Shown here one piece after another: positions 31,129 through 48,778 of a stretch of DNA of 64,000 bases. The notes under the pieces are model-generated. The model saw nothing but the letters and a program-made list of their open reading frames with translations. It searched no databases and was not told the DNA's origin. Location of the stretch: assembly GCF_000165425.1 (NCBI RefSeq), contig NW_001798955.1:806001-870000 (forward strand), read 5' to 3'. Each line of letters begins with the position of its first letter. Within the stretch, counting starts at the first letter, position 1. The position numbers and the translations under genes were made by a program. The DNA is from Paramecium tetraurelia. Lineage: Eukaryota; Ciliophora; Oligohymenophorea; Peniculida; Parameciidae.

Positions 31129-31207
31129 TTAGTTCAGTTTCATTAAATTTATATAATAAAACAAAAATATTATTAAATGTTTATTTATTTTAGGACACAC
31201 ATTCTAA

Positions 31208-34200
31208 TCATTAAATTAACCAGATTATGACCATCGATAATAATAGGGTGTCATATATAGCTGCAGGTTCATCAAATGACTTTCGCAAAGTTTTATTTGT
31301 AAATGAATAAACCTTTGAGGTTTCAGTCCAGAGACTCGGACTGTCTTAAGTAGCTATCAAGTATATGTTGTACCACTTAGAAGGCTATAGATCAGTAAAG
31401 TTATGACTAATGGACTAAAATGTATGAGTAAATTGAATACTTCGGATGAATAATATTTAATGAAATAATAAGCGGAATCTATTGATTAATTTAGAGGATT
31501 AGCAAAATACTTCATTTGAATACTGGAAGGTATGAGTCCATCTGTAGCATATGTGCCAGCACTGAATTTGGGAGTAATGTAACCCCAAACTAAGCCTGTT
31601 TATCTTAATCGAATGTCAGAAAGGGATAACCAAGTTAAACCTCTTGTAAATTTGACAGTGCTGATGATTTCTGGAGATTTATCAAAAGTTATTTCTTCCA
31701 AAGGGTCTACTGAGAATAGGCGTGTAGAGTTAGTTAAATTGCCAACAAAGTATCTCATGAAATTAGTATCTTCCACTCCAGCGATAACCTACTTCCAATT
31801 ATTATCATTAGGTAGATCTTGATTTGGAATGAAATAATATTAGACTGCTGTTTCCACTCCAGCATCTACTTCTTCCTCTCCTTCATCTTAATTGTTTTCA
31901 TCTGTTGGAGTCCCTTCTGTAGTGGTATTGGTCTCTTCGAGCATTTTATATTGGGAATAGACTGCAGTAGAATTGAATGATAAGTCTTTATTGATTGAAT
32001 CGCTGCAGAAGATGGCATCGTAACTCAGCACATCATAGCAGGGATAGGCAAAAGTGTAGCATAGCCAACAAGCTATTGCTTTTTTACTTTCAGCATTGAG
32101 TTCAGTTCCAAAATGAAAGGTCAACTTCATCAATCTGCCATTATTGTTTTGAGTGAAGAACTCAACATATTATGTATTATTCTACATATCATATAAATTA
32201 ACAGCCCAACTCTTAATTTTATACCATGTTCTAGCTCTAAAGGAATATATTATAAAATTACTTGAGTTTCTTCAATTCTAGAACATAATTAGTCTTTCCT
32301 TATAAATAAAGTTGTCCAAATTGTTCTTAATAATAATCTGAATATCTCAATTAAGTGTTATTTTCAGAAAATAACTTTACGTCATCAAAACTTCTTTCGA
32401 ATCCATTCAGCATTATGGCATGATAATAAATGATCAAATCTTAGTCCGATTGAAAAGTAATGATTTACTTATTGGAATAATCTGATAATTGATTTAGTTG
32501 CATGGAGTAAACACATCCAATCTTTTTGATTGCATCTGTGTTATCTTTGACCAATTTGAATATAGTTTATGCGGATGATTACACAAAATATGGAGCTGAA
32601 TTTCCACTGAAAGTCATCAACAAAGTGCTGTAATAATAATCAATGGTATCTAATTTGTCACTATCTTGCACTTCAGTCTCAGAGAAAATAATGAATGTGA
32701 TTTTAAGGTTATCTGAAGTGACTTAGACATTCATTTTGGTATCTGAAGTAGATTGAAATTTCAAACCTGCAGGTTTATCAACATTAAAAGGAATCAATTC
32801 AAAATCAATTAATAGATCTTCAACAGGAATATTCCCTGAGAAATCTATTAATACAGGAATAGATTTCATAAAAATTGGAACATCATATGAAGGAAACTAA
32901 GTGGTGACTTCAGTTTTGGTTGTTGTGATCATCACTTAGATGATTCCTGCTTCACTATAAGTGGGAGTGTCTGATTCTTCTTTTGAAAAATATAAGTAAT
33001 ATGATTGAGGATTTGTCGATCCTGAACAGCCTATTCTTGTCAATGCCTTGCCATCTCCAGGATAGACTATTAAATCATTGACGACTTTGAAGAAACCACT
33101 GTTGGAACTAATACTGAACTTTAATTTCTTATTGTATCCACGTTCAATCTAACCAAGTGAAATTATTCTACTATATTATCCTGGTTTTAAGAGTAATTCA
33201 TTGTAATTCAGTCTCAAGATTTCATCTGTCGACTAGATTGTATATTTAACATCATTGTCTGTCTCCTCTTTCCAATAGATAGTATTTTTGGTAGAATCGG
33301 CATTCAACTTAAACTATTGGATGTTTGAGTAAACATAGGTTGATAATTATTAGATTTGAGTCTTGTCTGATGTAATCAAACTGAAGATTGGCAATCCAAT
33401 ATAACAAGAGGATGCTTCCATATTGGTCATCCCTGTAATTTTGACTATGTATTTTGTATTGGCTTGGAGCATGCCTTCAAATTGTAATAGAATTCTATTT
33501 CCCAATGTTTCACATTTTGAGATAATGGATGTCACTCCATCACTTTCCAAGATTCCACTACATGCAGTCGGAGGCTTCAATTAAACCAATTTACCATAAT
33601 CTTTAGATGGGAGATCAATAACCAGATATTATCCAACTTATATATTACCTAAAGTTGTTAAATAATAGGTGTATTACGATTCGGTTCTGATTCCAACATT
33701 AGAGATTTCGAAATCCCTAATTATCAGAGATATCGGAACTGTAGAAGAAACTGCTACATCACTCAATGTTCCATATTCATTTATTGTCGTTTTATCCTCA
33801 TCATAATCCACCATTATGAATATTTAATCATCGTTATAAGTAGATATAGGTTGAATTATGCCAGCTATTACTAAATTTATTACTGTGAAGGAATCTATTG
33901 TAAGAGTGAATAATTTAATTGAGATTGTCCTTTCGTTATCATATTAGCAATATGCATCGGCATCACTCATCAAGCAACTTAGACTTTTCTTATTGTCATA
34001 TGAATTATAATAGTATGGTAAGTTAACATAAATCGTAGATTTTTGGTCGAATGGCGAACTTAGTACTAAATTTATTTTGAGTTCAATCATCGCATAAGCT
34101 TAGGGATAGGTTTTACTTATTGTAAGACCAGTTGCCGATAGAACAGAAGGCGTATTTTAAAAGGTCAATGCAGTATTACTAGCTGTTCCTTGGGACAAAA

Positions 34201-37200
34201 TAGTCGAACCACTCAAGACCTTGACAAGAGGGGCCATATAAGTATTAGGTGTCAAAATGTTGAAGCATCTGAAAATGTAGAGATTTCCTGGGCTCAAATC
34301 ATTAACTGGTCTTATTGTTATCAAAGTAAATGAACTTCCTTCAAAGGATTTCCAATCGAAATTCTAAGAACCATCCGAATTCAGAATGGAACAATGAGAT
34401 TTGGATACTGTACTTGAGGCCACCATTGTGAGATCAAAATTTATCTACTGATTATATAGGATGCCACGATTGATTAATTTGAATGTAAATTGGAACTTTC
34501 CTCTCATACCATTATTCATCCTTTCAAATTGAACATCCCCAACTTCCACTTTAGGGGTAAGAGGAGTGTTATTAAATTTCAAAGTTCCTGCTCCAACAGT
34601 AGTCGCATCAATAATAACATTCAAAATTGTATATGTAGTTATTGTGTAAGCCTAGTCATTTGAACTTGAATCTGGCATATTGATCCCATATTATACTATG
34701 GTATAAGTATCAGGGGGGAATGCTTAGGAGGCAGCAAAAGTAAACCTTATCTCGACGCCATCCGTCTTTGATATGGTGCATGTATGAGCTATTTGCTTTG
34801 CTGCTTAGCTTGATTTTAATTAACACAGACTTGCAGTTGATACTGTAAATGGCCAAGATCCTGAAGTGAAGGAGAGAGAAACATATCCATCCTTTGGAAT
34901 GTTATTTACAGTAGTGAAGATCCATTGGACTATCTAATCTTAGTAGCTTCTTTAAATTGTTGGGAAAATATCTAAGGGAATTTATATTTGACCAGCAGTT
35001 ATTGTGCTCACTGATTCAGGAGAGTATGATTGTAAATTACCATTTTTATCACTCCATCCAGAATAACCTCCTGTAGGAGTTTAGACTCCTTTATCTGGAT
35101 AATTAAAGCCTTCAATTTTAATGTACTAAGATATGGAGGTGATAATTGTATCTCCAATCATTGGACATAAGAACCCATAGAAATCATTGTAATGATAAGG
35201 AACACATTTCTATTCATAGGTTAAGGATGGATTCAAAATTAACCCTTTAGTGTTGAACTTAGGTCCTATCATATTCCATTTGCCTTGATAAAAGAAGGCT
35301 GTTCCTTACAGTGCTCCACTATTGGGGGTAATGATAGGTGTAGCTTGTGTGTGTCCATAGTATACTTGGGCAGCAGAGTCCTGTTGACCAACACTTGGTG
35401 AGTAATTAATAAGATCCAGTTTATAACTTTGACCAGTTTTGGTAATGCCAGCATTTACTGGGTCAACTAAAGCCAAAGAAGGGGCATTCATCGTTTAAGA
35501 GACTAAGGCACTTTTGAAAGCTATAAAATGACTATAGACTTTATCATCTTAATTTGATGAGATAATAGCCAAAAAGAAAGTCAATTAATTAACATTTCTT
35601 ACAGTACTTACAGGTATGACTAATTGAAATGGAGATGCTGGCCCGCTTTTTGAAAATGTATCATCTAAAATGAATTCAACTCTATGTAGATTATAGACTG
35701 ACTGTAAGGCATTGGTAGCATCATCACTTCCTGTGTAACCATAGCATTTTTATTTTCGATTTAATGTCGAAGAACAAGATACATATTGTTTGCCTTCAGG
35801 AGATGTCCCTTCAGAGAATGGAGATAACTTCAATATTAAGAAAATATACATTGTTAAAGAATATTGCCAATCTCGCAGCTTTATCTACAATTGCTTGTTC
35901 CAAGAAACCTGTCACTCTAATGAAAGCAGGAAAGTATGTACCATCCAATTTTACAGTAGTACCTGTCCAGAAATTGGCAATTGATAGGTAGAGATTATTC
36001 ATTTGATTAGGTCCACTTAATGTATATGAGTTTGCAGCAATAATTCCTGTAATTGGAACTATAGGTGTGTTAGATGGAATTCCAATTTCTGCAGTAAAAC
36101 CGATGAAATCTATTAGATCTTCACCGCAAAATTAAGAGCCATTATTTTATATATACACAGGCCCTATAGAAACAGTATATAAATTATTTGCTGCATTACC
36201 TCCAAACACATTTTAAATGGTGGCTGAGGCAGCTGGTATTCTAGTCAATTAGATAGAGGTGTATTTCTTATTTGCATTATCAATTTAAACATAGTCAGAT
36301 CCTGAATTAAATACGAAATCTAATGCGGTGTAAACTGCAGGAGTTGGGGTGCATGTTAAAGCTGGAGTAAATTACAATGGACTTTCTGCCAATATAGTTG
36401 AAGTCCCTTTTAATATTTTTGGATTAGTGTAAAAATAGTACCCAACTGTTCGAGTGGGAACAGAAGCAGCAAAACTTGTAATTTATGGTCTAGCTGTAAA
36501 AATTAATCTTTGCTCATAGTCTGCATATTGTAAACCAAAAGAGGAACTGGTGGGACATGCAAAGGGATCAGAAAAGCGTTAAGAATGTGCAAAGGTGTAT
36601 CCATTCCCACTATTCGAACTTATAATGGCCACACTATTCAAGGTTGAATAAATGGCTTTTGAATCTCTACCTGAGGGGATTAAAGGTATAGCATCATATG
36701 CCACTCCATTTGAGGATGATTCTAATTGGATTAATCCGAAATCAGCTGGAAGATCTCCTGGAGTAGCTTAATTCGGAAACGACATTTTGACCGATATAAA
36801 ATATGTGCTCTCTAGATTCAGTGTTCCAACATTTGAGCAAACTATTTTGATTGGTTAAACCTTAGTGACACTGCATGAAACTGGGTTCTTGTCAAATTAT
36901 GGCAGATTCTCCTATAGACTTCCCTCCAAAATCATGGAACCTATATCAGATGTCAAACTTAAGGTTACTCTTAATTTCAAATTTAATGGAGTAGTGCTTG
37001 AAGGGAAAAAAGTGAATTTTAATGAATTAAAATAAGGATTTTGTGCAGTGTCTCTTATTATTTTCAATTATGATGGCAAACTTGTATCTGATAATTTCAA
37101 TCCCCATAAAAAATAAGTCACTAAATTGTCATTATTATTCCCCCAGGTTAAGGCAGATGTCGATAAAATATTCAAAACTGTCACTTATTCTACTATGTGA

Positions 37201-38093
37201 TTTGCATATGAAAGCATTGACATTACTTAAAATCCTCCTCCTGATGATTTCACAAATTTGGGATTCTTTATACTGAAACTAAATTTGAGAGTAGTATTGA
37301 ATATCTAATATAAGCTAACAGTCAATATATTATTTGCAATTTAACAAGTGTATTAAGAACTTGTCAATGCTGGTATGTCAGTGTTGTTGACATCTTTATA
37401 GGATTCCGATGTGCATTGTTCACCTTAAAATTAATAATCGTTATCAGTCATCTGGATCACTATTCGAGCTTTCCTATCGATAGGGATCGTCGGAGTTATC
37501 TGCACTAAAAGGGAGTGTCTATAATCTAATAATGTAGGAGTGGCTGATTAAAGCGTGAAACTGGATGCTAATGTTGAAGGTGGAGTAGGGGTGAATTCAA
37601 TCAATGCAAAGGCTCTATTGAAATCATATTTTATCCAATTATTTACACTGAAATCTTAAATTGTTAATGCCTCTATTGGAGATAATATTTAAGCCACTTA
37701 ATTGCTAAATGCAGTTTTAGATGATATGCTGACTTTATAATAAGTGTTTGCTTCTAAAGCTCTTGAATCCCCATCTAAATTGAGAAATTTTACATGGTAC
37801 CATCCATTACTATCTTTATATAAGGCTCCAGGAAATTTTGATATTGGACTACAATCAGTAGTGCTGACTTCATTATAAATCACATCAACTCCTTGTGGAA
37901 CTGTGCTCACAACCGAGGCTTCAATTTAGAATGGGATTTTAAGACTCAAATACCCCGACTTTCCTAATCCACTCTAAAGTCTGAAAGTAAACGTTAATTA
38001 AGTGGTATAACCAATGTTCAGATAATTAATAGAGTAATCAAGTGTTTCTATTAATCCACTGTATACGATTTGTACTAGTAATAAAAAAAGCAT
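31208..38093 (-). CDS. giant secretory surface protein, probably GPI-anchored
   Basis: About 2270 residues. The N-terminus MLFLLLVQIVYSG is a signal peptide. The C-terminus, reached by splicing a 26-nt intron (about 31405-31430), is WYNIYLIATQDSPS..., then a short spacer and a hydrophobic tail DTLLLSMVIIWLIQ with no cytosolic residues, the pattern of a GPI-attachment signal. Between them is a repetitive array of Thr/Ser/Asn-rich beta-strand-like modules of roughly 150-250 residues with scattered Cys pairs and no internal membrane helix. It is not the Cys-periodic Paramecium i-antigen type. Another intron of 22 nt near 35830 was verified; at least one more is needed for the frame. It probably passes through the ER to the cell or ciliary surface. 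Function is unknown; adhesion or surface-coat use is inference. Confidence 0.7.
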
Positions 38094-38127
38094 TAATTTA
38101 TTATAAATATACACATAAAACAACTTT

Positions 38128-39900
38128 TCACTTCCCAGTAATCTAATTAAATATATTTTATGCTTCCTCTTTATAATGACTCAAAGCTTCCTCTACGTGT
38201 TCACTCTTTTGACTCTCTTGTACTTCTTCCATTATCTCTATAATGTTCTTCAATAATTTGTGAGCTAATGTAAGCATCTTTTGATCCAACACCTATTAAA
38301 TCATCTCATCTGTATCATCAAACAGCATCTCAAGAAATTCTTACTTCTCAATCCAATTTGCAAACTAAACGATAATACTAATTCATACTAATGCAAAGAA
38401 ACTTTCTAAACTTTCCTCAGGAGTGATCAAAAGTGTTTCTCTTATTCTAAATTAAAGAAATGCCTTCTGTCGATCAATCTTGTATTGCAATAAATGATTC
38501 TCTACTAGAAAACCAACCTCATCAAACTCATCCAATAATGATTCCAAAATAGTTTCATGCATTATGTTGTTAGGCAATACAAATTTATCAGCCAATTCAC
38601 TTAAAATCAATAATTTCTCAGCTTTAACATTCGGATTACCAAATGAATCCAAAAATTAAATAGACTCCTCAAAAAAATCAAATAAACTCTACTAAAATTA
38701 ACCATTTCTGATCACGAATTTAATAGCTTAAATATCATATTCAACAATCAATAAATCATTTTCAATATCAAATTTGTCTCTCATTTCCTAAATCTTAATA
38801 AATAATTCTTTCGTTCCTCTCTCTTAACCTTCTAAAATGCAAAAATAATTCATTGTAACTTCCAAATATATTGTATCTTAATTGAAACTCTCTAAATATT
38901 CGTGAAAATCTTTTAACATTTCTTCACATTTTGATAAATCAGTCAATTGATAAGTTGAAGCTAATTAGCAATAGCTTTAAGCATATTAGATTGAATGTTT
39001 TCCAAAAACTTATAAGTATAATTCTATTGCTTTTTCAAAATAAGGTCTTGCTGCTGTAAACTCTTAGATTTCCATTTGAACACTTCCTAAATCTTCAAAT
39101 ATCTAAGCAAATTTAGCAATTCCTTTTTCCTTTTGTTTCTCTGCTTCATTAGCTACTTCAGGATTTTCGTGATTGCATACTACAATAAGTTTCAATTTTA
39201 CATTATTTAACTATCTCCATAAACTTTTCTGTCTCCTTCAAGGCTGTTTCGTAAAGCTTTATTCCTTATTATATTTATTCTTATTCTATCAATAATTTTG
39301 CTTTCATTTCATAATAGAATGCCAAGTTGTATTAATATTATGCCTAACCTTACTCTTTAGTTAAGTATCCTTCGCTCTCTCCAATCTCCTCGAAATTATT
39401 ATTGAGGTAATTTTTTATAAACACCACAGATTCTTTATACTATCTTGTCAAATATTATTATTATAATACTTTAACCATTATTCAATTTCTCTAAACTCTA
39501 CATCGTCGTATTGCTTAGCATATTTTAGAGGAATAACTCCTATTGCCAAATTGTGCCATAAAAATTAGTGAAAATCAATAGGATATTTAGACAAATCAAC
39601 ATTGTTATAATGAACATCATTCAAAAAGTCTTCAGAAAGTACTTCCTACACCAATTTATCCTCCATTTATTAATTTTCAATTAAAAATCGTGCATACTCG
39701 ATTTTGTCTAATAACAAAGAGACGCATTTTTTTTTTTCTGATTAATCCATTTCCTCTCTGATCCCTATTATTTTTCTTAACATATCCATTTATTAATGCT
39801 CGTTTTCACAATCTTCCATTTGATCATACAATTTATCAATTTCAGCTTATTTTTCATCCCTAATTATCTAGGATCGAAAAATACTTATCATGTTTGCCAT
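38128..39900 (-). CDS. TPR-like helical repeat protein
   Basis: The 574-residue protein is all-helical and starts MANMISIFRSQIIRDEKQ. Three to four TPR-like helix pairs are visible in the middle: QYQYNLAFYYEMKAKLLIE, then IFEDLGSVQMEIQEFTAARP, PYFEKAIELYLQVFGKHS and YAQSYCQLASTYQLTDLSK. A long acidic C-terminal helical part ends HVEEALSHYKEEAQ. The spacing resembles kinesin-light-chain or nuclear-autoantigenic-sperm-protein (NASP)-type TPRs, but I cannot choose between families. A 26-nt intron (near 39430) and a 22-nt intron (near 39210) make the length divisible by three. The stop is 34 nt from the start of the giant surface-protein gene, which it precedes in the transcription direction. Confidence 0.75.
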
Positions 39901-40258
39901 TAAAAAAAAATCCATATTATGGTATCATAGTTAAGGTTGGAGTATAAACCTATTATTATTTAATCTGAAGAAATAATGATCTACTTTGGAAAATAGTTTG
40001 AAAAATTCTCTTCACGGCATTCCTGATGAGCATTAATAAAATAATAAATAAATATTTAATTTTTATGAGCCGCATTGAAGGTTGAGTTCAGTCGAATGAT
40101 GAATAATTATTCATAATTTAATAATTTCATTTTTAATTTAGAATACAGACTTAAATAGAGATTAAGGAGAAAAATATTAAATTTATTGGCATTTAGATTG
40201 ACCATTTATAAAAATCCTCTTACTATATTGAATTTCATTTAATCCTTATATTATAGAT
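39901..40258. other. intergenic AT-rich spacer
   Basis: It lies between the TPR gene start and the 3' end of the minus-strand SRP RNA. No frame or motif is visible; it must contain the TPR gene promoter. Confidence 0.4.
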
Positions 40259-40264
40259 AAAAAA
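40259..40264 (-). terminator. RNA polymerase III T6 terminator of SRP RNA copy 1
   Basis: Six T on the minus strand directly follow the conserved ACAACTC end; the same arrangement is seen in copy 2. Confidence 0.7.
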
Positions 40265-40565
40265 GAGTTGTTTATTTTCAGAGTCCTGCTTAATAAGTGC
40301 CACGATAGGCTACATCAATTCAAGAGTCCGGTATCCTTCCGCCGCTCATAGCGATCCCTATTGCTTGCTCTGTTTCCAGCCTAAGCCATTGCGAGATTCT
40401 TCAACACATGTGAAACCCTCATTACTTATGGATCCCACAAGTGACTACGAGCTCGGTTAGGGCGGTGACTCTTAACAAAATGACTCAGCGAGCTCTCAGA
40501 TGACAGCTTATCAAACATCCTCTTACAACCCACGTAAAGTGAAAGCCAAGTTGTCCCAGCCTGGG
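40259..40565 (-). ncRNA. signal recognition particle (7SL) RNA, copy 1
   Basis: A 307-nt GC-rich island in AT-rich DNA, transcribed leftward and ending in a T6 run (40259-40264 on the minus strand), consistent with RNA polymerase III. On the minus strand it contains the SRP helix-8 core with the GGAAAC apical loop followed by AGAGCA, closely matching the human sequence around GGUCGGAAACGGAGCAGG. It also has the Alu-domain TGTAA motif and distant segments able to pair across the molecule (GATAAGC with GCCTATC, one mismatch). SRP RNA binds SRP9/14-, SRP19- and SRP54-type proteins and targets secretory ribosomes to the ER. It differs from the second copy at about a dozen positions and is otherwise identical over its whole length. 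A protein-coding reading is excluded by TGA stops and copy-to-copy indifference to codon phase. Confidence 0.85.
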
Positions 40566-40719
40566 TTTAATACTTATTTACTACTTATTAACTTTAATAC
40601 ATTTTTATCTTAGAACTTTTTACTCTTTAATAAGTAAACTGTAATCTAATTTGTCTTATGGACTAATTTATTTTAAAAATTATAATCGATTTAAATGAAC
40701 TAATTTAATTTATACTTAA

Positions 40720-41980
40720 TCAACTCATTGGTTATTACATTTATCCAAATTAATTAGGTGGTGGTGGGGGTGGTGGTAGCTGATTTTATGGATAATTATA
40801 ATTAGATTATTAGTTCTGATCTTTTAAATACATGGTACTATCAGTAAATTGTACAATTTAAGGTTGGAATACTTAAGGATTCCAATTAGAAGGTGGAGCA
40901 ATTGGTTAATTATAAATCTAAGGAACAGGAGCAACTATTTCAATAGGTACATCTACAGTTGGATCCTTGCTACAGCATGTACAGCCTATAATTTATAAAA
41001 CTTTTATTTTACCTGCAAGAACTGCTTAAACTTATAATCTATATACTGATTTAACTAACTGCCCATTAGATGAAGGATGAATACCATCTGGTGAATTTTT
41101 ATTGTGTAAAATTAATTAGATTTATTTTCTGTCATTTTCAATAGCCTTAATCCCAGCTCCAATTCCTTGAATTTATTATGAAACAATAGTTCTTAATATT
41201 ACCTTTTCTCTTCCTGTTCGGTCTCTCAAGGTTAAGTAATTTTATAATCTGGCATCAATTCTTTTCACATCTAATTTGCAATTAGAATTATCCACATCAG
41301 CCCACAGGTAGGCAGTATCTCCAGGAAGGTAATGATTCTTATCAAATACACACTTGATGTGAGAAGTCTATTTATAATTTTAAATAATTACTCCTTAATT
41401 GATGCAACACCAAGTTGATGCCTTTACTTCCATTTATCCCATCAAAGCTGCCATATTCTGCTTTAATGGTTCCCTAACAACTAAAAGCTATGAATGTTTG
41501 ATGTTCTTATAAGACTTATTATATGATTCGATTTCTGTTTTGACTCTATATGAAATTTTGGCTTAATAATCTCCTCCCTTTTCAAAATAAGATCCTGGTA
41601 AGTGAGACAATAATTAAAATTAAAAAGGAAAGGTATATTGCCCAACAGGTAAGCTACGAGTGTTAAATGTCCATATTGCCACTCGATGTTAATAAAATTA
41701 GGTCTAACCTGAATAAGTTACATATTCAGTGTGTTGTTCTTGCTTTCCATCTGCACCAGTAGTAGTGCGAGAATGACTTTCGGTCCAATGACATTTTTCC
41801 TTTCCAGATACTTTTAATAATACTACTCCTCCAGGATATCCATCTTTAAAAATATTCAAATAGATATTTCCTAAATTTTTAAGATACCTTCTTACCTGTT
41901 ATGATTTCTCCAGCAAAATAGAAAGGTTTGTCTGTTCTAATATATACTCCTCCAAAATCAGAGCCTTATTAATTTCCCAT
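40720..41980 (-). CDS. arrestin-fold (ARRDC/alpha-arrestin-like) protein
   Basis: The 402-residue protein starts MGNQQGSDFGGVYIRTDKP. An arrestin-N domain is recognised by FYFAGEIITGNIYLNIFKD, then LPVGQYTFPFQFQLLSHLPG, the typical arrestin 'LPxGxYxFPFxFxLPxxLPxS' block. The arrestin-C half contains SHIKCVFDKNHYLPGDTAYL. A CTCC cluster sits near the C-terminus, followed by a Pro/Gln/Asn-rich tail with an eight-proline run. The MGN start could allow N-myristoylation (weak). Two introns: 25 nt near 41890, and a 27-nt stop-free intron near 40995 whose removal joins AVLAG to CTCCSK. The length divides by three. Alpha-arrestins are endocytic adaptors for membrane transporters; that role here is inference. 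It sits inside the inverted SRP RNA pair. Confidence 0.82.
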
Positions 41981-42081
41981 TATAACTTTAATAATGAATC
42001 AATATAAAATATAGTTTTGTATTCAAAATTGAATTATAATGTGGAATAAATAATTATATTGAATAAAAACTAATAAATTAC

Positions 42082-42705
42082 TCAATTCTTTAATCTAGTC
42101 TATAACCATTATTTCCAATATTTTTCAGATATTTATTTTTGAACACTTTCTGTATATAATTAGGCTACTAGCATAGATTAACCTGGATGATTTTGTGGCA
42201 AATCTTTCTTCATTTCTAAAGCAAGTTCAAAGAATCTTCTTTTTGCATCCTAATCAACTATTGTAATCCTTGATTAAGCTATGCTTCCGTATTTTTCATT
42301 CATATCTTATATTATCTTATAATCTTGTCCGATTTCGCTTGGGCCTCTTGATAAATTGATGTCAACTGGAATTTTGAATTCAGGTTAATTCTAAATATTT
42401 GCAGACACTTTGCTTTTTTAAAATTTTGTTGGAACCTATGAAGCTGCTTTATTAGGAGAACAATCGTTAGAAAAATCATCAGAATCACTATCATTATATC
42501 CATTAGTTTTCTTGGAATATTTTTATTCTAATTATTCAAGATATGATTTTGTGTCCATCATTTGATGATTGGGTTTTGAGTTTGTGTATTTTTAATTGTT
42601 AAAGTTAGATAAAGTATTTCCATAATCATACGATCCTATCCTTTAGACATCCTTTAAACTATTATAAGTTCCATCATAAGAGGACAATGCTCTGCTCTCA
42701 GTCAT
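42082..42705 (-). CDS. unknown 207-residue protein
   Basis: A single-exon frame in ciliate code, MTESRALSSYDGTYNSLK... to SEKYWKQWLQTRLKN before TGA. The N-terminal two thirds are Ser/Asp/Asn-rich and probably disordered. The C-terminal third is helical and Lys/Glu/Gln-rich (DMNEKYGSIAQSRITIVDQ, RRFFELALEMKKDLPQNH) and looks conserved. I do not recognise a family. It starts 31 nt from the divergent CX3C gene at 42737, so the two must share a very small promoter region. Confidence 0.65.
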
Positions 42706-42736
42706 TTCAGTTAAATTAATATTAATTCATTTTTTA

Positions 42737-43345
42737 ATGTTTGATAATATTAAGTCAGCTGATGAGCTTTATGCTACTGAAAATGAAAAAGAATATTATG
42801 ATAGAAAACTCTTAGAATATTAAGATATGTACTCTATTAAATAAGCAATCACATCCTATAGCAAAATCAAATTATTTAATATCGATCAATAACAAAAACT
42901 TAAATATGAATGTTATTCTAAATGTTATGATAATAATCAAGTGATTTTCGAAAATTCAGAAGAGGGAATCAAAAAACTTAGTAAATGCTTAACTGAGTGT
43001 AAAAAACAAACAAAAGATCTTAAATAATTTCTAAAAAATGTTGATAAACTAGTTTATTTCAAGAATTAAACATGCCATTCTAATTGCGATTAGATGATTA
43101 ATTATAATGTAGATTAAACATACTAGGAAAAAATTAGTGTAAATGAATTATTAATTCTTAGAATAAAGTAAATATATATAGATGTAGATGGGTTTGTGAA
43201 AATAAGCTAGATCGTAGATATAGAGAATTTTGGTTATAATAAAGAAACGATATCATTGATAGATATTCCAGCTAAATGGCAAATTGAGTTATTTAATATA
43301 ATAATGATATAATTATCATTATCTCTAATTATAATATTTTTATGA
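42737..43345 (+). CDS. small CX3C-motif protein, possibly FAM136-like
   Basis: The 202-residue protein is one exon. Three CX3C pairs occur in order: ECYSKCYD (about residues 58-65), KCLTECKK (about 85-92) and TCHSNCDQ (about 113-120). CX3C pairs in helical hairpins are typical of proteins imported into the mitochondrial intermembrane space, and FAM136 (DUF842) has a comparable series; the 25-residue spacing between the second and third pair matches it. Unlike FAM136A, the protein continues for about 80 residues and ends in a hydrophobic segment (LFNIIMIQLSLSLIIIFL), which could be a tail anchor. Family assignment is tentative. It runs toward SRP RNA copy 2, whose 5' end is 224 nt downstream. 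Confidence 0.6.
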
Positions 43346-43569
43346 AACAATTATAAGTTAACACGTATTTTCTAACCTATTGTAGTTTAACTATATTTTT
43401 GCTTTTACATTTATTAAGATATAAGGAGGAGTTTGCAACCATAAGTATCACTTTTAAGAGTAAAGTTTAAGGAAGTATCAGACTTGATTTACTCTGATAA
43501 AATAAAACCCATAAATTGCTAATTGTAATTATACACGTAATAAATGCAGAATAATGTTTAATTGATTAA

Positions 43570-43876
43570 CCCAGGCTGGGGCAACTTGGCTGTCACTTTA
43601 TGTGGGTTGTAAGAGGATGTTTGATAAGCTGTCATCTGAGAGCTCGCTGAGTCATTTCGTTAAGAGTCACCGCCCTAACCGAGCTCGTAGTCACTTGTGG
43701 GATCCATCAGTAATGAGGGTTTCACTTGTGTTGAAGAATCTCGCAATGGCTTAGGCTGGAAACAGAGCAAGCAATAGGGATCGCTATGAGCGGCGGAAGG
43801 ATACCGGACTCGTGAAGTGATGTGGCTTATCGTGGCACTTATTAAGCAGAACTCTGAAAACAAACAACTCTTTTTT
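43570..43876 (+). ncRNA. signal recognition particle (7SL) RNA, copy 2
   Basis: A 307-nt GC-rich element transcribed rightward. The helix-8 core GGCTGGAAACAGAGCA lies at 43754-43769, the Alu-domain TGTAA motif at 43608-43612, and the closing long helix is supported by GATAAGC (43623-43629) pairing perfectly with GCTTATC (43825-43831). In copy 1 this pair carries one mismatch. It ends with T6 at 43871-43876. The 5' boundary is placed at the CCCAGGCTGG that both copies share; upstream sequences diverge apart from a few bases. It binds SRP proteins and directs co-translational export, relevant for the secretory proteins of this cell. Both copies keep the functional cores unchanged, so both are probably active. 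Confidence 0.87.
43871..43876 (+). terminator. RNA polymerase III T6 terminator of SRP RNA copy 2
   Basis: A run of six T after the conserved ACAACTC 3' end. Confidence 0.7.
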
Positions 43877-44256
43877 CTAAATTCATATGTTTCGAAGAAT
43901 TATTAAAATCAATATTATAGATCCAACATAATGATACTTTGTACTAATTTTAATTTCAATTATTTTTATTAAATATCTATTATTAAAGGACAATATGTAT
44001 CAATTTCATTTTGCGAAAATATATATGTATTATTAGTTAAATTAAATCATACATTGCAAGATGAAATTATTCAGATTTTATTTATTTAATAAGATAATTA
44101 TAGAATTTTCTTCTAGTTATAGAGAATTTTTGTTTTTCATATTAATAACTACCTGTTATATCAACCAAGGATTTCGTAATTAATATTTTCAGAAAAGCTC
44201 TCCTAAAAAGATTATATTCTGATATTTTTATTAGATAAAATTAATTATATGATAAT

Positions 44257-45081
44257 TCAAAAACAAATGCGATTACCCATTATTATTTCTTCTTTGTAAT
44301 GCACCCCAACATAATAAAAATTTTCAAAAGTTACTAATTTTTATAATTCTTCTATATCATCATATTAATATAAACTAGTGAATTTTGGTAGTGTTAGCAA
44401 CTCAAGTAGTTTTGGAATTGCTGTAAAATATAATTTATCTACTATTCTTATTATTCTTTTGGGCCCATCTTCCAACTGAAAAGTTTAAAGTTAATTATAG
44501 TTCATATCATAAACATTTAGTGTTTTTGAAAATGTATCTGCAATATAAATTTTATCATTAAACCATTCAATTCCACTTAAATGAACACCACTTATCTCAT
44601 ACACAAATTCACAATTCCCTTCAAAATCACATTTTAATAATGAAAAACTCTTAGACTAAAAATAAAAGCCGAGTAAATCAGAAACTTAATAATCTATAGT
44701 AATGTAAACATTGTTATGAACTACTATAAAATCATAAATGATCAATCCTTTAGGCAGCAAAATGGTTTTTATAATATTCCAATTGCTTAAGATATCAATG
44801 TTATTGTCATGTGCTAGATATAAATAATTTTCATTTGCAAACATTGCATAGCTATTATTTTAGGAATATAGAAGCGACTATTTTTCATCATAAATCCCAT
44901 TGTCAGCAAGAAAAAGTAAATTATTTTAAAACAATTATAAGTCAATCGGAGTAACATCTATTGTGGTGCATCTATTTATTTTTCCATGATCACTTTTAGG
45001 CCTTTTAAATAATCCAAATTATAGAAGCTAATTTATCATCATTGATGTTATAATTGTAGTGACAATTATAAATAATTTCAT
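44257..45081 (-). CDS. paraoxonase/SMP-30-like beta-propeller protein with signal anchor
   Basis: The 274-residue protein is one exon. The N-terminus MKLFIIVTTIITSMMINQL is a signal peptide or signal anchor, which paraoxonases also retain. The body shows propeller-like repeats: NNLLFLADNGIYDEK, NENYLYLAHDNNID, NNVYITIDYQ, HLSGIEWFNDKIYIADTFS and IVDKLYFTAI, ending YVGVHYKEEIIMGNRICF. The order and the C-terminal 'V...GKLLIGT'-like strand recall paraoxonase/arylesterase, but the protein is shorter than the usual 355 residues and I cannot confirm the calcium-site residues. Divergent from the microprotein gene by 49 nt. An extracytoplasmic lactonase/esterase role is inference. Confidence 0.6.
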
Positions 45082-45130
45082 CAATAATAAGAATAAAAAT
45101 ACAATAATAATATAATTATTAAATAAACAA

Positions 45131-45256
45131 ATGAAATTCAAAAGGGATATAAAAGGTTTATTAAGTTTAGTAGCATTATCAGCAGCACCAGTGATGTATT
45201 ATTTTTATAGAGATTAAATATATAAAATAGTGGATGGAAAAGAAAAGAAGAAATGA
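45131..45256 (+). CDS. 41-residue single-pass membrane microprotein
   Basis: A short frame starting MKFKRDIKGLLSLVALSA and ending KIVDGKEKKK before TGA. It has a basic N-terminus, one hydrophobic helix (LLSLVALSAAPVMYYFY) and a Lys-rich tail. The layout recalls tiny subunits or assembly factors of mitochondrial membrane complexes, but I cannot name one. It starts 49 nt from the divergent propeller gene and is followed by 358 nt of spacer. Support is compositional only: it contrasts with the surrounding AT-rich non-coding DNA by its regular amphipathic pattern. Confidence 0.5.
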
Positions 45257-45614
45257 ATTGATATTATTATGGTAGCATAAAATGTTAAACTAAAATCATA
45301 GATTCAATAATTTACATAAAATTTTCATATTTAAAGTTGAAATATAATTTGAAGCATTCATTGAAAACACATGTTCACTTATGTTCTTATTTTATTCTAA
45401 ATTTTTGTATTAATTAATTACTTCTAAATACCATCCAAAAATTAAATATGTTCTTAATTGTAGAAAAATTAAAATAATATATACAAAAAAGGAATCTTCC
45501 TAACAGGATGAGAGAAAAAAACAATATTTCTGAGTAATTTCAAAATAATTCTTAAGAGATTAAAGTATTTTGCTTATTTAATTCTTTCTTTTTACTATTT
45601 ATTATAATAAACAA
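45257..45614. other. intergenic AT-rich spacer
   Basis: It lies between the microprotein and tRNase Z on the same strand. No frame longer than a few dozen codons, RNA or repeat is seen. Confidence 0.4.
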
Positions 45615-47639
45615 ATGGCTAAATGCCATATTCAATTAGTTAAATTAGCAAAACCTTGTATAATACTGAATTTCGATCTAAAGTCTTACGTTTTTAACGT
45701 ATCGGAAGGTTTTCAAAGATACCTTTCTGATTATAGCATCAAGACTAAAATGTCAACATAGATATTTTTTACAAATTTAAATGCTACCTACATTAATGGC
45801 ATAATAGGACTATTACTCACACTTAATTTCGATAAGCAAATTGATGGTACTAAGATTTATGGACCTTCTGGATTATGTTAATTGTTTTCAGCTTTTAGAT
45901 ATAGTGAAATCGGAGGAAAATCCATTAATAGTTTATCTTGTCATGAGTTTTAGGGAAAGAATCTTATTTACCAGAAAAAGGATCAATATTACTAAGAAAT
46001 TTTTGAAGGAAATATTTATCCAGTCTTAAATGGACTAAAACTTGTTAAATATGAAGAATAAGAATCTTTATAAATGTATACTGATGAATATGTCGAAATA
46101 GTACCAATAATCCACAAAAACAATAATATTTCTTATATTATTAAAACAAAAAAGATTAAAGGTAGTGTCTCTACAGAAAAGCTTTAGCTTTTAAAATTAA
46201 CTAATATTTAGAAGAAAGAATTATTTTAAAATCATTAAATATAATTAGGGGATTAAATATATCCAGAGGCTTACTTTAGAGAACCTGATGTAGAAGAATA
46301 AGGGATCTTGGTATTAGATATAATTGATGATTTAGACTTATCATAAATCGATTTTCCAAACAATTTAAGATGCATTTTGCATATAAATGATCCTAAAACA
46401 GAAATCTATTTAAATTTTTTAAATAAAGTGAATGTAGATCATATCCTATGCAATTAAGAAGTCCAGAATGAATACTCAGATAGTATTCCAAAGACTAAGT
46501 TTATTTGCAATTATTTGAATTCTAAATATCCTTTCAACTTTCCAAGTTTTAGTAATAATTATTCAATCTAGAATAATAGATACATCTAATTCTAAGCAAA
46601 TTATCATTACATCTTACATCCTTTAAATAAGAGAGGATTTTAGATGATGGCTCCCTAAATGATTGGTTAAACTTCTTAAATCAAAGAAATTAATTACTAG
46701 TAAACTCCGATTAGGCAATATAAGTCTGAGATTCTATTATAATTTTTAGGAACAGCTTCTATGAGGCCAAATAAATATAGAAATGTTTCAGGAATTTTAG
46801 TTAAATAATTTAACTCAGCAATTCTTTTAGATTGTGGTGAAGGAACATTTCATTAATTACAAAGTTAAAATAATTTTGATTTTAATTAAAAAATACTTAT
46901 TTGGATTAGTCATGTTCATTGTGATCATAATTTAGGGATAGCCTCATTCTTATAAAATTGTAGTAATGTATATTTTCTCGTCCCCTAAATTATGATTCCT
47001 TGGATTGTTTAATTAATTGAATTTTATTAAATTAAACATACTTGCTATTTATGTTATATTCCTTTTGATAATTATAATCTAGAATAAGAGTTTGCAATTT
47101 AGAATGCCAAAGTTTAGAAATTTAATGAAATAAAATTATAATAATTATAAGAGCTATTTAATATTTAGTTAGAATATGTTAACGTTGATCATTGTCCATA
47201 GGCTTATGGCTTAAGAATAAACTTCAGAGATGGAAGCAGCATTAGTTATTCAGGGGATACCAGACCTTGTTAATAATTTATTCAATTATCAAAAAATGTT
47301 GATTTAATGATTCATGAGGCAACATTTACTGATGATCTTTAAAAAAATGCAATAAGTAGAAAGCATTCAACTGTTGGAGAAGCTGTTGAATCGGCTATTT
47401 TGGCTAATGCTAAGACATTAATATTAACACATTTTTCATAAAGATACTGTAGAACAGGAAGTTGCTAATAATAGAAAATAGAATCAAATCAAATTTAATC
47501 TACAATTAATAATGAGACATATGAATAATATTTAAATACAAAGACAGTTATAGCTCTAGATTTTTTAAGTGGTCTTTTAGATGAGTATCCAAATTTAGTA
47601 GAATTAAGCTAACACTTATAATAATTGATTGAATCATGA
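45615..47639 (+). CDS. ELAC2: long-form tRNase Z (ELAC2-type)
   Basis: Endonuclease removing 3' trailers from precursor tRNA in nucleus and mitochondria. The 674-residue, intron-free protein has the long-form two-lobed layout. The N-terminal lobe is degenerate (FNVSEGFQRYLSDYSIKTKM, then KIYGPSGLCQLFSAF). The catalytic lobe shows FLGTASMRPNKYRNVSGIL, ILLDCGEGTFHQL, the metal-binding ISHVHCDHNLG (HxHxDH), VNVDHCPQAYGL, SYSGDTRPCQQF, MIHEATF, KHSTVGEAVESA and ILTHFSQRYCR. All expected zinc ligands and the HEAT and HST motifs are present, so the enzyme should be active. The length divides by three with no splicing. Confidence 0.95.
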
Positions 47640-47645
47640 ATTAAA

Positions 47646-48778
47646 TCATAAACAATGCATTAAATCATTAAAATATTTTAATTCTTCCTTTGAAAAGCGA
47701 GCAGTTTATTCTATCTCTTAGAATCTTATTTTTAGTTTTTCTAAATTTTTTAGGGAACCTAGACTTTTATAATTAGTATTATATAAAGTCAACAGAAATA
47801 TTTTTAGATTTATTCCTTTTAGCAAATCTAACTCAGTTAATTTTTGTTCAATTAGAGGTTTTAATGTACTATGTTAGATGGTCAAAGTTTTCGATGCATA
47901 ATAAAGCAAGAGAACTTATTATGTTAGAATCAGTTATGAATAGTTATCTGTTTAGATGATTGTTGTAAATAATTTATAGGTTGCAGATGAACATAGAGTT
48001 ACTCTGCTACATCTGCCAAAAATTTCAAATAATTCAAATAAAGATTCACTTGGTAATCTTAAAATTTTCTCATTTTCTAGAACCTCGTCTCTTAACTAAC
48101 TTAATTTTAGAAACTTACTTAATAAATTAGTGATGGAAAATAATTAATCCCTGCCTTTACTAAAAACAAAGTGTAATATAATTTCTATTCTAAACTTATT
48201 TATTAATCTAAGGAAGCTAATAATTGTTAATTTATCTAGTCTAATATAGAAGTGCTATATCTTTTGATATATTTCATTAATTAGCAAAGAGCTCTAACTT
48301 ATTTAAAATTGGACAAATTTATGATTAATCTGCCGCATAATTTATGATAGACGTCTAAAATAAATTATTCCTCCTCTGGTGTGAAAATTACTTTCTTTAT
48401 CTTTACAAAAAACTAGTCCTCTACAAAAAATAAGCCATTTTATATAGCATTTAATAGTGCATAAATCTCCTTTTCTGTTATTTCTTTATCAAAGCGATCC
48501 AAGTATTCATTAATCATTTGGCACTGCAAATAAAAATATTTAGGGTGATTTTCTTTTTCAAATTTTGTGTTGACAAAGGAGAAAAATATTTTTTTTTTCT
48601 AAATCAGTCTTAAGAAATTCTTCTTTTAATTTAAGGAAATCATCATAATTTGCTTGATTCCTTTAATATTAAAGAAATAGTATTACAATACTCTCTCCGT
48701 TTTATATTAATCAAATAAGAGCATTAATCTTTATTCTATTTTTAAATTCTAATCCTTATTTTTTGCTATTTTCTTCAT
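47646..48778 (-). CDS. unknown helical protein with an apparent poly-A frameshift
   Basis: A 360-residue all-helical protein, if two introns (26 nt near 48665; 23 nt near 48110) are removed and one A is dropped from a ten-base run (T10 on the plus strand, 48589-48598). The parts then read coherently: NQANYDDFLKLKEEFLKTDL before the run, and FVNTKFEKENHPKYFYLQC and MINEYLDRFDKEITEKEIYA after it, ending FSKEELKYFNDLMHCL. The middle contains long Leu-rich helices (FELFEIFGRCSRVTLCSSA, TIIQTDNYSQLILTQQ). This could be a HEAT-like fold; no family is recognised. Its stop lies 6 nt from the convergent stop of tRNase Z. Confidence 0.6.

Follow-up and report, generated by a model that had tools for sequence, protein, structure and literature searches.

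An inverted pair of SRP (7SL) RNA sequences lies in the window, that is, the whole 64-kb stretch of Paramecium tetraurelia DNA analyzed here. The pair is real and ordinary in kind, and it probably comprises one gene (the right arm, copy B) and one probably silent copy (the left arm, copy A), with a second gene (copy C) on another contig, C211. The explanation that we consider best, and regard as fairly likely, is that copy B is a working gene, that copy C is its partner, and that copy A is a promoterless copy that arose via RNA after the genome duplication.

Identity of the inverted pair

The two arms, at positions 40259-40576 and 43559-43876, are 318 nt long, 95% complementary, and separated by 2982 nt, in agreement with the inverted orientation described in an earlier sequence-only reading of this DNA. 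Comparison of the whole window with Rfam using cmscan at the gathering threshold listed two matches, both to RF00017 (Metazoa_SRP), two lower-scoring overlapping matches of the same clan having been left out of the listing. Copy B scores 85.1 bits (43571-43850, plus strand) and copy A 76.7 bits (40550-40285, minus strand), both above the gathering cut-off of 70 bits, so that the assignment of the arms to SRP RNA in that reading is borne out by the covariance model. Compared with the eukaryotic SRP (7SL) RNA that the model represents, both arms align across its full length (model positions 1-299), although the ciliate arms score modestly and the upstream element seen at the other copies is missing from arm A. 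Among 14 control genomes searched with RF00017, five gave a match at the E-value cut-off and none exceeded the gathering score. Judged by these scores, the SRP RNA identity of the inverted pair is far beyond chance.

The RNA-length core shared by copy A (40259-40567, minus strand) and copy B (43568-43876, plus strand) consists of 309 aligned columns with 12 substitutions and no gaps. The earlier estimate of about a dozen substitutions was accurate, and that of 307-nt arms was close to the 309 columns counted here. As also read from the letters, T6 stands at the 3' end of both copies, and both contain GGAAAC and TGTAA; GGAAAC and AGCA, which we take to be the core motifs of helix 8 of SRP RNA, are identical across all three copies. 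Searched with Rfam and with a DNA query, the genome (69.07 Mb in 231 contigs) yielded at least three places each time: the two arms, B and A, and copy C on C211 (RF00017, 88.7 bits). Copies B and C are identical at 302 of the 303 RNA positions.

Upstream element of SRP and U-RNA genes

Copies B and C share an upstream element with other small-RNA genes of this genome. Six Rfam searches of the genome yielded 18 matches to U1, U2, U3, U4, U5, and U6 RNAs, which were set in gene orientation with offsets measured from where the Rfam match begins; all 18 were preceded by AAACCCATA at -60 to -68, and 14 by the full AAACCCATAAA, with two U1 matches at 10/11 and two U3 matches at 9/11. Both SRP copies B and C carry AAACCCATAAA at 11/11 at position -63, counted from AACCC. 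In copy B, this putative proximal/upstream sequence element occupies positions 43505-43515 on the plus strand and is followed at -32 by the TATA-like stretch CGTAATAAAT (43536-43545, plus strand), which is present in copy C as well. The presence of AAACCCATA at U-RNA loci L011-L028 and at SRP copies B and C was observed irrespective of polymerase type, the U-RNA set presumably spanning polymerase II and III types. A genome-wide search for the pattern AAACCCATAAA-N40-60-AACCCAGGCTGG recovered copies B and C only; copy A also has AACCCAGGCTGG.

Upstream of copy A, by contrast with the other copies, the best match to AAACCCATAAA down to -110 is 7/11, and the best match to AAACCCATA between -72 and -56 is 4/9, a score equalled or exceeded in that band at 95% of the sampled window positions. 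A full 9/9 match to AAACCCATA in the same band occurred at 0 of 3,454 positions, sampled at 37-base intervals along the two strands of the window. Copy A is the sole one without the element among the 21 U and SRP matches examined. It has a TATA-like stretch matching at 7/10 at -34, a level equalled in 11% of 1,565 AT-rich stretches. Accordingly, of the two SRP genes proposed in the sequence-only reading, both hold as SRP RNA sequences, but the snRNA-type upstream element is found in the right arm only and is missing from the left.

A promoter composed of a PSE/USE and a TATA box has been described, and ciliate telomerase RNAs are named as having it, in PMC9841428; PMC9841428 and PMC12133305 mention that ciliate telomerase RNAs have type 3 promoters and that the same element occurs at SRP RNA genes. 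Copies B and C resemble type 3 (snRNA-type) RNA polymerase III promoters in the shared element at about -60 and the TATA-like stretch, but differ from them in that, as known here from sequence, the same element in this genome also precedes U1, U2, U3, U4, and U5. We infer that copy B probably functions as an SRP RNA gene, with RNA polymerase III acting on an external promoter of the snRNA type (type 3); this promoter would consist of AAACCCATAAA at -63 and the TATA-like stretch at -32, and transcription would stop at the T-run. The Tetrahymena element reads CCCATAA.

The element has a practical use, as AAACCCATA at -60 to -68 provides a simple check when small-RNA genes are called in this genome. 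Two Rfam matches above the cut-off would normally lead to two annotated SRP genes, and the element separates the probably live copies from the probably dead one. Downstream of several genes among the U2, U5, U3, and U4 loci (L014-L020 and L025-L028), a stretch resembling TTAAACAAACGAAAT was recognized by eye, partly so for U4, and perhaps represents a 3' processing box; in place of it, the U6 and SRP genes have T-run ends. A search for telomerase RNA (RF00025) gave no match in this genome or in the 14 control genomes and is hence uninformative.

Substitutions and predicted fold of copy A

At the 12 sites that distinguish A from B, copy C agrees with B without exception. Within 303 nt, the private differences number 12 in A, none in B, and one in C (site 160, with a further difference at 309 in the T-run). 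By hand count, eight of the changes in A are toward A/T, three are toward G/C, and one exchanges A/T for A/T. The predicted fold of copy B pairs 65% of positions 1-303, and five of the 12 substitutions of A fall within predicted pairs: four break them (C141-G148, G250-U88, G257-C78, and U260-A74), one converts C-G into U-G, and none forms part of a compensatory double change. The pair C141-G148 is one pair away from the tetraloop of the presumed helix 6. In 1,000 random placements of the substitutions, 8.2 were expected in pairs as against the five observed (P 0.044), and 5.4 broken pairs were expected as against four (P 0.27), with P 0.15 for the fold energy of A. The distribution of substitutions in A thus appears near random with slight avoidance of pairs, which, under the predicted fold, is a weak hint of constraint.

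The sequence-only reading had paired GATAAGC with GCTTATC and had seen in the divergence of this helix a sign of relaxed or co-evolving pairing. The partners were mistaken: in the predicted fold, GATAAG (RNA positions 56-61) pairs with CTTATT (271-276), identically in both copies, and not with GCTTATC (258-264), where T260C breaks another predicted pair, A74-U260. With no double change among the 12 substitutions and four of the five in-pair changes breaking their pairs, a co-evolving helix finds no support and was rejected.

The weak hint of constraint bears on an improbable alternative, in which copy A would be an SRP RNA variant that functions under separate regulation with another promoter, or else a stretch transcribed within the 3' end of the arrestin-domain gene, which has its stop codon 152 nt upstream of A on the same strand. 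Its score above the Rfam cut-off and its avoidance of pairs would be in keeping with function, as would the unchanged helix-8 core, no A/B substitution falling between 159 and 245; such a free stretch is found in 22% of random placements, however, so that the substitutions show no clustering by this measure (longest free stretch, P 0.22). Against a functional variant stand the isolation of A as the one U or SRP match lacking the element and its four broken pairs, including the one near the helix 6 tetraloop, none of them compensated. A related idea, to which we give quite little credence, is that A could give a second, live kind of SRP RNA without the common snRNA-type element, produced, for example, within a longer transcript or at some special stage like macronuclear development, and altered in the Alu-domain end and helix 6; if so, the cell would hold two kinds of SRP.

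Taken together, the presence of the element upstream of B and C and its absence from A, the agreement of C with B at all 12 sites, and the uncompensated breaks in A give copies B and C the appearance of live genes and copy A that of a promoterless copy. Under this preferred reading, copy A (40567-40259, minus strand) is a probable pseudogene that would be RNA-length, promoterless, and drifting, and from which SRP RNA is probably not transcribed.

Partner stretch, origin of copy A, and loop genes

Around copy C, 40 kb of C211 forms colinear blocks with window positions 44 to 63984, with stretches missing between the blocks, and owing to this colinearity the C211 stretch is presumably the whole-genome-duplication partner of the window; copy C would accordingly be the duplication partner of copy B. 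The loop together with copy B (window 40678-43916) matches C211 in one alignment, at 78% and with unchanged orientation, copy C taking the place of B. About 9.5 kb of the window (31204-40678, copy A included) has no equivalent at the corresponding place on C211, where about 0.8 kb stands instead; C211 also lacks about 3.6 kb to the right of copy B. The 31204-40678 stretch without a counterpart at that place contains ORFs of up to 1220 aa. With copy A as the query against the 40 kb of C211, the best match other than copy C had an E value of 0.65 or worse.

Possible remnants of A on C211 were considered and rejected. Under permissive scoring, the match of copy A to copy C extends over 348 columns at 91.4%, as against 308 at 95.8%, and the extra 40 or so upstream columns, with roughly 60% identity, are taken as background. 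Permissive comparison of 1 kb of C211 with the window gave many AT-rich matches among those listed; the one beside A (window 40265-40102, 61.5%, E 0.001) touches the end of A and is no better than matches elsewhere.

The similarity between A and B ends with the RNA, as the sequence-only reading had noticed. Over the 70 nt upstream, A matches B at 39/65 aligned positions, as compared with 0.655 +/- 0.057 for shuffled sequence, and further out at 87/132 and 54/81 positions, the shuffle null covering the upstream 39/65 only. For B and C, the corresponding flanks are identical at 53/70, 91/123, and 55/84 aligned positions, the last being at the shuffle level. From ends that match the RNA on both sides, the lack of flank similarity, and the missing promoter, we infer that copy A probably came about through RNA, most likely when an SRP transcript was reverse-copied into the neighborhood after the genome duplication.

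The main rival of RNA copying, which we judge unlikely, holds that A is an old inverted DNA duplicate whose flanks have diverged while selection, or else gene conversion from B, preserved the RNA part, and whose promoter was lost recently, with decay now starting. The near identity of B and C despite their fallen flanks demonstrates that conservation confined to the RNA can arise without RNA copying, and an older A could have been lost from C211 along with the missing 9.5 kb. Such a history, however, would require long function followed by recent loss, and neither the A/B flanks, which are no more alike than chance, nor the -72 to -56 band, with its 4/9 match, retains a trace of it.

Copying through RNA has its own difficulty, in that A lacks the marks that LINE-driven copying usually leaves. 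The best direct repeat that might represent a target-site duplication is 4 nt long, a length reached by 58% of shuffles, and no poly(A) or 3' oligo(A) follows A, where T6 is succeeded by ATCTATAATATAAGG. We therefore do not file A as a LINE retropseudogene. Small-RNA retropseudogenes, according to PMC5322556, occur with or without a tail; copy A is likewise RNA-length, promoterless, and drifting, but differs from them in having no target-site duplication, no poly(A), and no truncation of the 3' end. The search for retrocopies covered U2 and SRP, and a U2 DNA query of the genome returned the same four genes alone, all with the element. If A were confirmed as a promoterless RNA-length copy, it would represent small-RNA copying in a compact ciliate genome. 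The ciliate somatic genome loses most mobile elements. Matches to the reverse transcriptase domain PF00078 were seen at two places (G000:C74:186640-187092 and G000:C15:69148-69528; L031 and L032), both containing TAA/TAG codons, which are sense in this code, and the one on C74 containing one in-frame TGA.

As regards timing, 60 of 174 four-fold sites in the three loop ORFs differ between the window and C211 (JC 0.46), the arrestin gene being represented by its second exon alone, as compared with an A-B divergence of 0.041. Copy A would therefore be much younger than the genome duplication if it has been unconstrained; had it been constrained until lately, this dating would fail. A young A fits its absence from C211, although the lack of about 9.5 kb next to its place there makes loss possible and thus weighs against a recent copy.

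A further suggestion was that the inverted arms could promote inversion of the loop or gene conversion, so that its orientation might differ between cells or strains. The arms are indeed 318 nt long, 95% identical, and 3 kb apart, but a recombination switch that flips the loop appears exceedingly improbable: the loop has one orientation in the window, C211, with its single arm, shows the loop in that same order and orientation, and the arms are of RNA length, as RNA alone would produce. No sign of a switch by inversion or gene conversion was found in the window or in the C211 comparison, though isomers could occur in some cells.

Within the loop, the sequence-only reading counted three protein genes, one of which is doubtful. 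The arrestin-domain protein gene (40720-41980, minus strand; 411 aa) has one 25-nt intron (41895-41871) and matches Pfam Arrestin_N (2.5e-16) and Arrestin_C (3e-17). The 207-aa ORF (42082-42705, minus strand) is without a Pfam match at E 0.01, and 208 of its 208 codons align to C211, with more changes at position 3 than at positions 1 and 2. The doubtful 202-aa ORF (42737-43345, plus strand), also with no Pfam match at E 0.01, differs from C211 by 0.30 at positions 1 and 2 and by 0.29 at position 3, a result from 173 of 203 aligned codons that gaps in the nucleotide alignment could blur; on one of the two sides, it may not be a protein gene, or may have ceased to be one. P. tetraurelia introns average 25 nt, and TGA is the unique stop codon, as stated in PMC5485702. 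Translation table 11 gave no ORFs of at least 80 aa in 36000-48000, and reading TAA/TAG as Gln gave 84 ORFs of at least 150 aa in the window.

By titles and the beginnings of abstracts, none of the matches listed in the ciliate or Paramecium small-RNA and retropseudogene literature describes this locus. Chen et al. 2009 is said to have analyzed the noncoding RNAs of P. tetraurelia, and Hargrove et al. 1999 to have dealt with the Tetrahymena element. Adjoining the SRP gene, at window positions 45615-47639 (plus strand), is a 674-aa ORF with Lactamase_B_2 and tRNase Z domains, a stretch that is missing from the matching place on C211. The G+C content of the window is 29%.
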